From the NCBI GenBank assembly GCA_002726915.1, contig PBSY01000047.1, positions 82,545-146,544 on the forward strand: 64,000 nt of DNA, given 5' to 3'. This DNA is from Verrucomicrobiales bacterium (GTDB lineage: Bacteria; Verrucomicrobiota; Verrucomicrobiia; Verrucomicrobiales; DEV007). This document shows, piece by piece, positions 49,196 to 60,747 of this stretch. The position numbers and the translations under genes were made by a program. The notes beneath the pieces were generated by a model. The model saw only the letters and a program-made list of their open reading frames with translations, ran no database searches and was not told the DNA's origin. Each line of letters begins with the position of its first letter. Position 1 is the first letter of the stretch.

Positions 49196-50656
49196 ATGGC
49201 ATCCCGAACAAAAGACAGAAAAGCCGACTACATCTTCGGTCCAATTCTAACCGTGGTCGCCGTTTCCGCCCTCTGGAAAAACGAAACTCGATTCGACTAC
49301 TTCAAAGCGGCCAGCAACGCGGTTCACGCCCCCTCTTTGCCTCAATCGTCAGAGGAACAGTTTCTGTCTTACACGGGAGACATGAACCAATCTCTCGAGC
49401 TATCCGGCAAATACATCGAAACCTTCACCGGATATCTCATCGTGCATCGAAGCGCTGAGATCTACTGCTGGGATCGAGATGAAGACGACGAGGGATTCGT
49501 CACTTGGAGCATGGAATGGATGAGCAGCGTTGAGAACAATTCGAGAAACAACGGCGTTGAGCAGAAACTGAAATCCGGTCGCCTCCTTCCTCCCAACTAC
49601 CAAGTGGGTGATCTCACCGTGAATTCGAAGAAACTGGAGTTTGTCGATTCTCGCGAAATCATTCCGCCCGGTCCCTTGCCTAAGACTGCGGAAGGAGCTG
49701 ACCTCGGTGTAGAAGCCCCCTACCTGACCCTGAACAAGGGCCGCTCCAATGGCCTCGGGGACGAACGACTCAGTTTTCGAGCGATCCCCGTTCCACCCAC
49801 CGCGACCTGGTTCGGGAGGTTTTCCGGAGGCAAGGGAGTCGCTGACACGAGGGAAGAGCGACAGGGAATGATCAATCGCCTCATTCAAGATACCGGAGTA
49901 CTCCACCATCTCGTCGCAGGAGAGAGAGACGTCGCCCTGATCACCATTCGTCGCCATATCAAACGCTTGAAATGGATCGTTCGCGGGATCGGAACCTTAA
50001 TCATCGTGCTTGGATTGCTCTACTTCTTCAGCCACTTCCTCAAGTTCCTCTATCCCATCCCCATAGTCGGCCAAATCGCCGAGACCGGAGCTTTTCTTGC
50101 CGCGCTCAGTATCGGGCTGCCGCTTGCTGTCGGCACCATCGTGATCGGATTCGCGGCTGAGAATCCGCTGTTTCTGATTCCGATCCTCCTGGTGCTCATC
50201 GCCGGAATCTGGCTCCTCGTTTACCTGTCCAAGAAGCAACGGAAAACGGGGCAGGCCATCCGACAGTCGCTGGAAGCAGAACAGGGACAGGCACTGGAGA
50301 CTAACGATTTGAAGAAACTCGAATACCGAGAGATGGCAGGTCTTCTCGCATCGAGTGGAAATCCGATAGGGACAAAGGAAATCAAGACGCTGGATGCCTT
50401 CGCGAAGAAGAGCGGATTCGAAGCCGAGGAGCGAGCGACCCTCCTCCAGGAAGTTCAGGATACCCCTCCTCCTTTGGATAAGGCAGAGTTTCACCTGGAG
50501 AATCTGATTCGACTCGCCCTGGCTGATGCCGTGTTAACTCCCCAGGAAGTGCGATCCATCAGAGAGGCCGCAACCCAGGCCGGATACAGTCGCAGTGGTT
50601 TCCGGAAGCTCATGGCAGAGGTGACGAAACAGGCAGAAAGCCTGAAAGCTTCCTGA
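49196..50656 (+). CDS. TMEM43-like membrane protein with C-terminal TerB-like helical domain
   Basis: TMEM43-family layout (VHRSAEIYCWDRDED..., PPNYQVGDLTV, LSFRAIPVPPTATWFGRFSGGKG, C-terminal TM segments); C-terminal LIRLALADAVLTPQEVRSIREAATQAGYS. Confidence 0.75.
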   Translation: MASRTKDRKADYIFGPILTVVAVSALWKNETRFDYFKAASNAVHAPSLPQSSEEQFLSYTGDMNQSLELSGKYIETFTGYLIVHRSAEIYCWDRDEDDEGFVTWSMEWMSSVENNSRNNGVEQKLKSGRLLPPNYQVGDLTVNSKKLEFVDSREIIPPGPLPKTAEGADLGVEAPYLTLNKGRSNGLGDERLSFRAIPVPPTATWFGRFSGGKGVADTREERQGMINRLIQDTGVLHHLVAGERDVALITIRRHIKRLKWIVRGIGTLIIVLGLLYFFSHFLKFLYPIPIVGQIAETGAFLAALSIGLPLAVGTIVIGFAAENPLFLIPILLVLIAGIWLLVYLSKKQRKTGQAIRQSLEAEQGQALETNDLKKLEYREMAGLLASSGNPIGTKEIKTLDAFAKKSGFEAEERATLLQEVQDTPPPLDKAEFHLENLIRLALADAVLTPQEVRSIREAATQAGYSRSGFRKLMAEVTKQAESLKAS

Positions 50657-57101: not shown

Positions 57102-58163
57102 ATGAAGTTACCATTCCTACCATTATTGCTCGCCACATTCCTCTCTCAGATTTCACCACTTTCCGCGGACACCCTCCCCGATCCCGACGGTAAGCCCGCC
57201 GACATGTCTAAACCCGTTCAGGTATATATCCTGCTTGGTCAGTCTAATATGCTGGGTTTTGGAAAGATCGCGGGTGGAAAAAATGGTCCTGAGGGTTCAC
57301 TCTCGCACGCTGTAAATGAAAAAGGTCTCTACCCCTACCTTATTGATGACGAAAGTAATTGGACCGAGCGAATGGATGTGCGCAATGTCAGGGTGATGGG
57401 CAGCGGCACCGGAGCTATAAAGCAATTTAACAATGAATGGATGACCATTGGAAAAAGCAATATCGGCCCTGAAATTGGGATTGGGCATTTCGTTGGCGAA
57501 GCGACCGACGCTCCTGTCTTAATCCTAAAAAGCTGCATCGGAAACCGAGCTCTTGGCTGGGATCTCCTTCCACCCGGCAGCGAAGGCTTCGAATTCACTG
57601 ACGCAAAAGGGAAAACATGGGTCCACCCCGGCTACAAAGGATCACCCGATAAATGGGAAAAGGGAACCAAGCCCAATCCGATAACATGGTATGCCGGCAC
57701 GCAATACGACGGAGATATCGCCCGAGCAAAATCAGTTTTGGAAAAGCTCGGAGACTACTACCCTGAGACTACGGAATATGAAGTTGCCGGCTTCTTCTGG
57801 TGGCAAGGAGATCGTGACAGCCGCAGTGCGGCTCTATCAAGCCGCTATGAACACAACCTCGCGCACCTCATCAAGCAGCTACGAAAGGATTTCGACGCTC
57901 CTGGCGCAAACTTTGTCTGCGCCTCTCTCGGTCAGACCGAAAAAGGAGCCACCGACGGAGGGGGCAAAATTCTCGACGCTATGCTCGCTGTCGATGGCAG
58001 TTCCGGGACATATCCGGAATTTAAAGGCAATGTCGCCGCAGTTTACACCCATCCTCTTTCGAAGGGTGGTAGTTCAGGTTCTCACTACGGAGGCAACGCG
58101 GAGACTTACATGAACGTCGGCGAAGCGATGGGCAAGGCGATGGTCGAATTGATGAGGCCGTGA
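57102..58163 (+). CDS. Sialate O-acetylesterase-like (SASA/DUF303) carbohydrate acetyl esterase
   Basis: PVQVYILLGQSNMLGFG, FFWWQGDRDS, THPLSKGGSSGSHYGGNAETYMNVGEAMG. Confidence 0.88.
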   Translation: MKLPFLPLLLATFLSQISPLSADTLPDPDGKPADMSKPVQVYILLGQSNMLGFGKIAGGKNGPEGSLSHAVNEKGLYPYLIDDESNWTERMDVRNVRVMGSGTGAIKQFNNEWMTIGKSNIGPEIGIGHFVGEATDAPVLILKSCIGNRALGWDLLPPGSEGFEFTDAKGKTWVHPGYKGSPDKWEKGTKPNPITWYAGTQYDGDIARAKSVLEKLGDYYPETTEYEVAGFFWWQGDRDSRSAALSSRYEHNLAHLIKQLRKDFDAPGANFVCASLGQTEKGATDGGGKILDAMLAVDGSSGTYPEFKGNVAAVYTHPLSKGGSSGSHYGGNAETYMNVGEAMGKAMVELMRP

Positions 58164-58245: not shown

Positions 58246-60747
58246 ATGAATTCATCCCACCACCGCTGTTTCACCGCCCTGATCCTCTGCCTTTTCGTAA
58301 CGAGAGCTCCAGGCAACGACGAAGCAACTTCCCTCAACCTGACGGAAGTAGGAGAGAAACTCGAGGCGCACTGGTCTGGGCAACTGGAGTCGCTCGGTTC
58401 TCAACTGGCGCAGCAAATCCCGAAGCCGGAGCAAGCCAAGGACGAAACGCTCAATCAGTTTCTCATCAGTGACTCACTCGATGCGGCTCTCGCCAAATAC
58501 GTCGTTCTGAAAGAAGCCACGCCTGCCGGTCTGGCGCGGTTTGCCCAGCAAGATCGGGATCAATGGCAACTCGTCGAAGGACTGCTAGCCGATCCTATCT
58601 TAATGCGGCAAATGCTTGTGGCTGACGGCGCCAAAGCAAAATCTCTCGGACGCAACGGCTTTGGACCCGCCGAATACGGCAAGGCGATTCAGATCTACAC
58701 CGACATCCAGGAAGCGAGTGAACATGCCTCTTCGGGTATCTTCCAGCGGTTGGCGCTCGCTGTCAGTCTAGAACACGCTGTTCCGTTGGTTCAGGCCAAT
58801 CCCGAAGCGTCTGTCGGAGCACCGGCAACGATCGATCCCGTGAAGCGTTATCTCCATTACGAAAAAGCCTACCTCGATGGAGAGTTGGATTCGACCTTCA
58901 GCCAATTAACGACTTGGGATCTGCGCATGGTGGTGAATGGAGACGAGCCGGATGAGACGCTTGTCTGGGGTCGTGAAATGTTGCGCAACTACCGCCCCGA
59001 TCACATTTACAACGAAAACTTCGGCTGGCGCTACGTGAACATTGTCACCTCTGATGTGAAATATGGATCACAGGATGTAAAATATGATCGACCCGAACTG
59101 CAGAAGTATCAGAACATGCTAATGAACGGCGGTGTGTGTGGTCGCCGTGCTTTCTTTGGGAGATTCATTCTTCGATCGTTCGGGGTTCCCACGACAGCCC
59201 GCCCCAGCCGAGGGCATGCCGCTCTCGCCCACTGGACACCTAGGGGCTGGGTCGTAAATCTCGGAGGAGGCTGGGGTGCCGGCTGGACCTCAACTCTCTA
59301 CGTGAAAGATGTCGACTTCCTTGCCACTACCCAGGCCAGAGCTAATTCGGAAGCTTACCTTAAAGTAAAGCGTGCCCAGTGGGCTGGTGACGTCCTTGAC
59401 GAAAAGCGTAGCTACGGCACAAATGAAAAAGAAGAGTCCGGATTCTGGAATGGTATCTCCCTTCAAGTGCAGCGCGCTATCATTGATCAATCAGACGCCG
59501 TTACACTAGCCGCGCTGGGTGAAGATCTTGGCGAGGCAAATGAACCGACCGTCGCAGAAAAGGTCATGGCTTCTCCCGTCACGGACGAAGATAAGAAGAT
59601 CATCCAGAACTCTGATGGCAGCATCTCGATCCCGGCCGCGGCATACAGCAAGCCATCAGGCAATACTCGTGAAGTGCTCGCCATGAAGAGCTTCGATGGT
59701 GGCCTTCAGATTTTTCTGCCTCGCTTTTTCCCTCAGGGAAAAACCATCATGCGGGGCGGCACCTGGAAAGGCGAACCTGATGCATTGGCCTCTGGAAAAC
59801 GCATGTTGAGCGGCGGCTACGGCAAATACGAAAACTGGGGGCTGCGCGCTGCGATGACCGCTCCTGAGGGTAAGACTCATGAGATCACCCTAAACCTAGG
59901 GGACGGTGTCACCATGGAGATGGTCTATATCCAGCCGGGAATTTTCGTCATGGGTGGCGAAAACGAAACCGACGGTCGCTTCGAGTGCATTGAAATTCCG
60001 AAACACGAAGTGCAACTGACAAGAGGTTTCTACCTCGGTAAATACGAAGTGACGCAGGCTCAGTATGAAACCATCATGGGCTTCAATCCTAGTAAGTCCA
60101 CTAAAGACCCGCGCTGCCCGGTAGATGACGTCAGCGAATCGGATGCTGTTTTATTCTGTGGCAAAGCCGCCGAAAAAACCGGTTTTGATATCCGACTTCC
60201 CAGCGAAGCTGAATGGGAATATGCCAGTCGTGCCGGAGCAGACTCCAAGTGGTTCTTCGGTGATGATCCCTCGGTAATCGGCGAGTATGCCTGGTTCAAG
60301 GAGAATGCCGGAGGGAAGTCTCACCCGGTCGGCCAACTGAAACCCAACCCATGGGGCCTCTACGATATCTACGGAAACGTAACCGAAAGAATTGCTGACA
60401 AATACGAGAAAAACTATTACTCAAGAAGTCCCAGGGTAGACCCCGCAGGCCCCTCACCCGGCACCATGTCCCATCTTGAGTACGTGATAACTGTTCCCAA
60501 GGCCGGTGATTACCATTTTACAGCTCGAGTCGTCACTTCAAATTATAACCAGCAAATTTGCATTTCCACTAATGAATCGAGCTCCGAGATCACTAAGGAA
60601 ATGCCCTTCACTGAAGGCCTTTGGAAAGAATCCGAACCTGTTACCCTAACTTTAAATCAAGGTGAAAATGTAGTACGGATGTGGCGGAATAAACCGCCCC
60701 AATATGGACTGGCAATCGGAGGATTCACACTCGCTCCCGCTCTGTAA
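58246..60747 (+). CDS. Secreted transglutaminase-like + SUMF1/FGE-like + carbohydrate-binding-like multidomain protein
   Basis: MNGGVCGRRAFFGRFILRSFGVPTTARPSRGHAALAHWTPRGWVVNLG (C/H/N triad-like); MVYIQPGIFVMGGENETDGRFECIEIPKHEVQLTRGFYLGKYEVTQAQYE...RLPSEAEWEYASRAG...NPWGLYDIYGNVTE; C-terminal beta-rich VPKAGDYHFTARV. Confidence 0.85.
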   Translation: MNSSHHRCFTALILCLFVTRAPGNDEATSLNLTEVGEKLEAHWSGQLESLGSQLAQQIPKPEQAKDETLNQFLISDSLDAALAKYVVLKEATPAGLARFAQQDRDQWQLVEGLLADPILMRQMLVADGAKAKSLGRNGFGPAEYGKAIQIYTDIQEASEHASSGIFQRLALAVSLEHAVPLVQANPEASVGAPATIDPVKRYLHYEKAYLDGELDSTFSQLTTWDLRMVVNGDEPDETLVWGREMLRNYRPDHIYNENFGWRYVNIVTSDVKYGSQDVKYDRPELQKYQNMLMNGGVCGRRAFFGRFILRSFGVPTTARPSRGHAALAHWTPRGWVVNLGGGWGAGWTSTLYVKDVDFLATTQARANSEAYLKVKRAQWAGDVLDEKRSYGTNEKEESGFWNGISLQVQRAIIDQSDAVTLAALGEDLGEANEPTVAEKVMASPVTDEDKKIIQNSDGSISIPAAAYSKPSGNTREVLAMKSFDGGLQIFLPRFFPQGKTIMRGGTWKGEPDALASGKRMLSGGYGKYENWGLRAAMTAPEGKTHEITLNLGDGVTMEMVYIQPGIFVMGGENETDGRFECIEIPKHEVQLTRGFYLGKYEVTQAQYETIMGFNPSKSTKDPRCPVDDVSESDAVLFCGKAAEKTGFDIRLPSEAEWEYASRAGADSKWFFGDDPSVIGEYAWFKENAGGKSHPVGQLKPNPWGLYDIYGNVTERIADKYEKNYYSRSPRVDPAGPSPGTMSHLEYVITVPKAGDYHFTARVVTSNYNQQICISTNESSSEITKEMPFTEGLWKESEPVTLTLNQGENVVRMWRNKPPQYGLAIGGFTLAPAL

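Follow-up and report, generated by a model that had tools for sequence, protein, structure and literature searches.

The gene at positions 58246-60747 of the plus strand, an intact frame of 833 codons in the open reading frame listing of the window (the whole 64-kb stretch of DNA analyzed here), encodes a protein whose formylglycine-generating enzyme (FGE)-like domain is, as judged from its sequence, complete in its blocks and circularly permuted rather than truncated. The architecture, in which this permuted domain is nested in a CBM6/35-like beta-sandwich joined to a transglutaminase (TG)-like core, is very nearly certain; taken together with the activity proposed below, the whole explanation has a probability of about 0.55. 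An earlier reading of this DNA, made without database searches (the sequence-only reading), had described a TG-FGE fusion devoid of the usual catalytic end. It had seen a real feature, which is well explained by conserved circular permutation and domain nesting and not by loss of the catalytic end. Full-length homologues share 53-85% identity with the protein, and dN/dS for the whole gene is about 0.08 against the closest relatives. The features of the locus are as follows.

57102..58163, plus strand: PF03629 (SASA, acetylesterase/SGNH) gene, the conserved partner (Pfam, E value of 5.9e-16)
58246..60747, plus strand: whole gene for a putatively secreted TG-like/permuted FGE-like/CBM6/35-like protein (reading frame of 833 aa; homologues)
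58246..58317, plus strand: N-terminal signal-peptide-like segment, residues 1-24 (hydrophobic FTALILCLFVT, judged by eye)
58318..59565, plus strand: helical N-part and TG-like core, residues 25-440 (AlphaFold2; TG-family alignment; weak Transglut_core profile match)
59137..59139, plus strand: Cys298, predicted nucleophile, in GGVCGRRA (invariant in 35/35; modeled in front of a helix; aligned with the Transglut_core Cys)
59215..59217, plus strand: His324, predicted second catalytic residue, in RGHAALAHW (invariant in 35/35)
59257..59259, plus strand: Asn338, third triad member according to the sequence-only reading (not conserved)
59608..59742, plus strand: CBM6/35-like beta-sandwich, N-terminal part, residues 455-499 (contiguity in homologues with TG and CBM parts only; CBM_35 match in L042)
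59743..59865, plus strand: relocated FGE C-terminal segment RGGTW...GLRAA, residues 500-540 (phmmer, C-terminal HMM, identity to L148, un-permutation)
59866..60465, plus strand: FGE-like N-part, residues 541-740, connected through a short linker to the relocated segment (PF03781; identity to L148)
60466..60744, plus strand: CBM6/35-like beta-sandwich, C-terminal part, residues 741-833 (Foldseek matches to CBM6/CBM35; Pfam CBM_6 below the cut-off)

Block order of the FGE-like domain

The only confident Pfam domain in the protein is PF03781 (FGE-sulfatase) at residues 558-730, which spans profile positions 4-203 of 255 (E value of 1.6e-30; 107.1-109.1 bits against a curated cut-off of 23.3), and in linear order the FGE-like part ends after DPAGPSPGT. 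The sequence-only reading had correctly noted that the domain breaks off in this way after GNVTE. It had further proposed that the expected RVxRGGSW segment is replaced by a beta-rich domain; instead, the segment lies upstream, and the CBM-like domain hosts the insertion. Residues 500-540 (TIMRGGTWKGEPDALASGKRMLSGGYGKYENWGLRAAM...) follow the FGE C-terminal block pattern RGG-[ST]-W ... [CL]-x-S-[GA]-x-R ... W-G-[LF]-R, and this RGGTW...GLRAA block, running from TIMRGGTW to GLRAAM, immediately precedes the FGE N-part instead of following it. The canonical linear order (N-part, GNVWEW, then RGGSW...GFR) is absent, as every complete homologue of the same architecture has the segment ahead of the N-part. 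All sequence blocks of the PF03781 family, including GNVxE and RGG.W...GxR, are present in the protein; in contrast to the members of that family, its blocks are circularly permuted and nested inside another domain.

The identity of the relocated segment is corroborated by profile searches. A phmmer search against PDB sequences aligned residues 500-522 to the C-terminal block of TvpA (2y3c), and an HMM of the FGE C-terminal block, trained on canonical relatives only, had its sole match in the protein at residues 501-520, with 7.0 bits (E value of 3e-4 when searched alone) compared with a top score of 6.8 bits among 1,000 shuffled queries. In the homologues, the best match of the same HMM, reaching up to 16.3 bits, also falls on the relocated segment, except in L034, because part of the segment is deleted there. 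The deletion in this permuted homologue (G164:C31) removes about 9 residues (GGTWK...).

We then placed the segment computationally after DPAGPSPGT and rescored the sequence against PF03781. The un-permuted sequence scored 122.5 bits instead of 109.1, and its match extended over profile positions 4-254 of 255, which completes the coverage; in a control with a shuffled tail, the score was 112.8 bits and the match stopped at position 223. Un-permuting three homologues increased their scores from 115.8 to 130.8, from 123.2 to 140.4, and from 110.4 to 125.3 bits, corresponding to gains of 15.0, 17.2, and 14.9 bits. Thus, both pieces of the domain are present, their order is swapped relative to a homologue, and swapping them back restores the profile. 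Linear profile searches report the domain as a truncated FGE even though no block is lacking and only their order differs.

The segment is also well conserved. In the alignment of the permuted family (17 members), R503, S516, R519, G524, Y525, G526, Y528, W531, G532, R534, and A536 are invariant, and G504, G505, W507, and K508 are kept in all members but the deletion-bearing L034. Its dN/dS of 0.05-0.12 against the closest relatives, an approximate value given 41 codons and high dS, indicates purifying selection. The structure was predicted by parts, as the sequence-only reading had recommended: the helical N-part with the core was modeled with a mean pLDDT of 81.7 and the CBM fold was matched (see below), but the permuted part, modeled by AlphaFold2 from an alignment of only 17 similar sequences, reached a mean pLDDT of 64.9, with most of model residues 1-43, including the relocated segment, below 50. 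If its fold closes, the domain represents a naturally permuted FGE/SUMF-type domain. Full-text literature searches, incomplete in their coverage, returned no earlier description of a permuted FGE domain, and no permuted PF03781 domain was found outside the present family among the sequences examined.

The CBM6/35-like host domain

The sequence-only reading had recognized a beta-rich, carbohydrate-binding-like C terminus, and our results agree with this. A Foldseek search with the modeled last 90 residues gave a best E value of 4.5e-6, with CBM6/CBM35 structures (2cdp and 2wz8 among others), and a further 47 matches at E values of 0.001 or less, nearly all of the CBM6/CBM35 type, supporting a beta-sandwich fold. 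Pfam CBM_6 matched residues 741-812 below its threshold, as it did, below the cut-off, in 12 of the 17 members of the permuted family. Compared with CBM6 and CBM35 modules, the sandwich differs in these low Pfam scores and in being split by a 240-residue insertion.

The position of the insertion emerges from relatives that lack it. Forty-odd members of the TG family have no FGE part, among them a paralogue in the same genome (L002) as well as L035 and L109. These TG-CBM-only homologues share the TG-like core and the CBM6/35-like C terminus of our protein; however, they have no FGE insertion, their C-terminal domain is contiguous, and their alignments skip from residues 490-494 directly to residues 739-748. 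Removing the insert from the CBM region did not extend the Pfam match into the N-terminal part, and the N-terminal half of the sandwich therefore rests on the contiguity in the homologues and on a Pfam CBM_35 match in L042 that crosses the insertion point. Nesting of the permuted FGE-like block in one loop of a CBM6/35-like beta-sandwich is firmly supported.

The transglutaminase-like core

All three motifs quoted by the sequence-only reading for a C/H/N transglutaminase core (GGVCGRR, RGHAALAHW, and WVVNLGGGW) are present in the protein. Two of the three proposed triad residues withstood the comparison of 35 TG-family members: Cys298 and His324 are invariant in all of them, even at identities as low as about 36%, alongside conserved GGxCG and WTPxGW motifs, but the third position is Asn in 25, Cys in 7, and other residues in the rest, so that no Cys-His-Asp triad is formed. 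In the AlphaFold2 model of residues 25-499 (pTM of 0.85; pLDDT lower near the core, in blocks of 54-84), Cys298 immediately precedes a helix and His324 a pair of strands, as in papain and transglutaminase folds. The order GxC, H, GW, with Cys before the helix and His before the strands, is that of the PF01841 superfamily; in contrast to this superfamily, the protein has no Asp at the usual place, falls below detection by the Pfam model, and has conserved motifs of its own (GGxCGRRAF and WTPxGWVVNLG).

Links of the core to known families are weak, and "transglutaminase-like" is therefore used here as a working name only. The region had no Pfam or NCBIfam match in the 833-aa protein, and a Pfam match appeared in only 1 of the 35 members (E value of 0.045). 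Searching the profile of the 35-member alignment against PDB sequences gave no match up to an E value of 10. Foldseek E values for the core were never below 0.02, irrelevant helical proteins ranked first, and the weak, insignificant matches included 3isr (probability of 0.51, E value of 1.1), TG2, and factor XIIIa. An hhalign comparison with Transglut_core proteins of relatives placed Cys on Cys with a P value of 0.004 and a probability of only 8.6% (P value of 0.4 for the reversed control).

We tentatively propose that the Cys298/His324 core may be a papain/transglutaminase-type amidase or acyltransferase. A noncatalytic core, serving as a binding or structural module, seems somewhat improbable: it would accord with the missing canonical Asp, the variable third position, and the failure of Pfam and NCBIfam models to detect the region, but it is opposed by the invariance of Cys298 and His324, together with GGxCG and WTPxGW, in all 35 members.

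Origin of the permuted order

The nearest relative of the permuted clade is L148 (also L125 and L136), a 387-aa protein of a planctomycete genome (G481) that carries both FGE pieces in normal order and, in contrast to our protein, no TG or CBM fusion. Residues 533-735 are 59% identical to residues 97-295 of L148 over 203 residues, and residues 498-539 are 60% identical to its residues 306-347 over 42 aa. A maximum likelihood tree of the FGE N-part united the 21 permuted sequences in one group (support of 98/89), with L148 as its sister (support of 100/99). The other 40 sequences were counted as canonical, a few of them being without an RGG motif by pattern search; L059, which the pattern search had called permuted, is a tandem array and was therefore counted as canonical. 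The simplest history is one permutation event from the canonical to the permuted order. About 20 homologues from Verrucomicrobiota and Planctomycetota, in independent assemblies, have the permuted order in common, which answers the call of the sequence-only reading for a survey of this architecture and excludes the assembly error that it had named as one way in which a C-terminal FGE segment could have been removed.

Tandem FGE proteins suggest how the order may have arisen. Related genomes encode such proteins, in which the end of each copy, its C-terminal block, stands before the N-part of the copy that follows; our protein aligns across these copy borders (residues 500-742 in G031 and 500-739 in G151). 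A unit cut out of a tandem FGE array would have the present block order, with the old C-terminal segment RGGTW...GLRAA first, then a short linker, and then the old N-part. The ends of C-type-lectin-like folds lie near each other. The resulting FGE-like domain would have been inserted into a loop of the CBM6/35-like sandwich at the C terminus of a TG-like protein. The un-permuted sister and the insertion-free host are both found in living lineages, and because both survive, the origin of the architecture can be traced stepwise. L059 (G031:C4) is a very long protein, with 2,219 aa in the stretch examined and at least 6 RGG motifs in an apparent FGE-like tandem array.

The same observations might be read as a scar of two tandem FGE copies, in which the upstream segment stems from one copy, the N-part from the other, and the two do not fold as a single domain. 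The tandem proteins of related genomes (L059 and L061), the alignment across their copy borders, and the low model confidence for the relocated segment are in line with such a scar, which we nevertheless regard as unlikely: the R, G, Y, W, S, and A positions of the segment are kept in 16-17 of 17 members, the segment is under purifying selection, and canonical L148 is about as similar to the one piece as to the other, as expected of one domain. A single permuted domain is the preferred reading.

Two cysteines of the N-part, at residues 581 (59986-59988, in GRFEC) and 638 (60157-60159, in LFC), are invariant in the permuted family and might form a disulfide; residue 581 is Ala in L148.

FGE catalysis and sulfatase activation

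Mutation of Ser333, Cys336, His337, Tyr340, or Cys341 affects the activity of human FGE (PMC4505483). Counting from GG, the counterparts of these residues are Thr506, Gly509, Glu510, Ala513, and Leu514, and Cys occurs at the position of human Cys341 in 11 of 17 homologues and at that of Cys336 in none of them. Furthermore, the WEW of canonical GNVWEW is changed to xER in the permuted family. The sequence-only reading had considered that catalytic cysteines might be found in a rearranged position; the segment is indeed rearranged, but the catalytic cysteines are absent from it. The noncatalytic members of PF03781 (Treponema TvpA, GldJ/GldK/PorK, and SUMF2) likewise lack the catalytic Cys pair. 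The resemblance to TvpA prompted us to consider a target of a diversity-generating retroelement, which is unlikely because the homologues strongly conserve the segment that corresponds to the usual variable region.

A search for other activating enzymes in the genome, as the sequence-only reading had advised, revealed 7 PF03781 matches by Pfam, two of which (C6 and C18) retain an intact C-x4-C (GGSYLCHESYC and GGSFLCSDEWC) and are likely, from these motifs, to be the sulfatase activators of this genome; no anSME was detected with TIGR03942. Since the domain lacks the active-site residues and the genome encodes two intact FGEs elsewhere, a role of our protein as a sulfatase activator was rejected, in keeping with the sequence-only reading, which had denied it this function. 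That the domain still modifies sulfatases, or has some other FGE-type oxidase activity, is highly improbable: the gene does sit among sulfatase genes, and the 3.5-Mb genome has over 150 sulfatase (PF00884) matches and no anSME match, but all five human residues differ, WEW is altered, and the two C-x4-C proteins are at hand. Least probable of all is a truncated FGE, its C-terminal segment lost to a beta domain or to an assembly error, which would suit the partial linear Pfam alignment but is refuted by L148 and the un-permutation test, in which the upstream segment restored a full-length match, and is further contradicted by the block order shared across two phyla and by the occurrence of the beta domain without any FGE in TG-CBM-only homologues.

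Gene neighborhood, distribution, and proposed role

A PF03629 gene lies directly upstream of the TG/FGE gene and also in front of the paralogue L002 (G000:C82:7444-9839). Across the family, PF03629 was found within 500 bp of 28 of 68 distinct genes, a lower bound given the short flanks at many loci, and on the same strand in 25; TG-CBM-only homologues, too, often have it adjacent, and the genome under study contains only 11 PF03629 matches. In a close relative (L010, 4828-9759), the TG/FGE gene has PF03629 genes on both sides; the second of these is absent beside the gene in the window.

Pfam also identified an alginate-lyase-like gene and sulfatases nearby, pointing to a role in polysaccharide use, for which the closeness of sulfatases is weak evidence because the genome holds so many of them. 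The sequence-only reading had rightly placed the gene between sulfatase genes, which means little for the same reason, and a functional linkage to the flanking sulfatases was set aside as uninformative.

Genes with the permuted block were detected in 6 of 190 genomes of the order (this one included), in 3 of 392 genomes of the Planctomycetota set, and in 3 of 388 of the Verrucomicrobiota set, all of them lower bounds obtained with a single query and an E value limit; further ones occur in a species-level contig collection, and TG-CBM-only forms are commoner. These results point to a family of putatively secreted Cys-His proteins that is unannotated, occurs in sulfatase-rich bacteria, and is linked to esterase genes.

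Our protein is most likely a secreted, glycan-bound protein with a permuted lectin-like module and a putative cysteine amidase or acyltransferase activity; the "glycan-bound factor" suggested by the sequence-only reading is consistent with the CBM6/35-like fold. The CBM-like and FGE-like parts would serve as modules for binding or positioning and hold the core on a polysaccharide or glycoprotein, where it may work together with the neighboring PF03629 esterase. It is possible, at somewhat less than even odds, that the natural FGE/SUMF permutation nested in a CBM has given rise to a new composite head for glycan recognition, carried by a family of secreted TG-like cysteine enzymes of the Planctomycetota-Verrucomicrobiota group that had not been described before.

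Elsewhere in the window, positions 49196-50656 encode a protein with a TMEM43 domain (E value of 5.7e-11) and, at its C terminus, a weak match to TerB.
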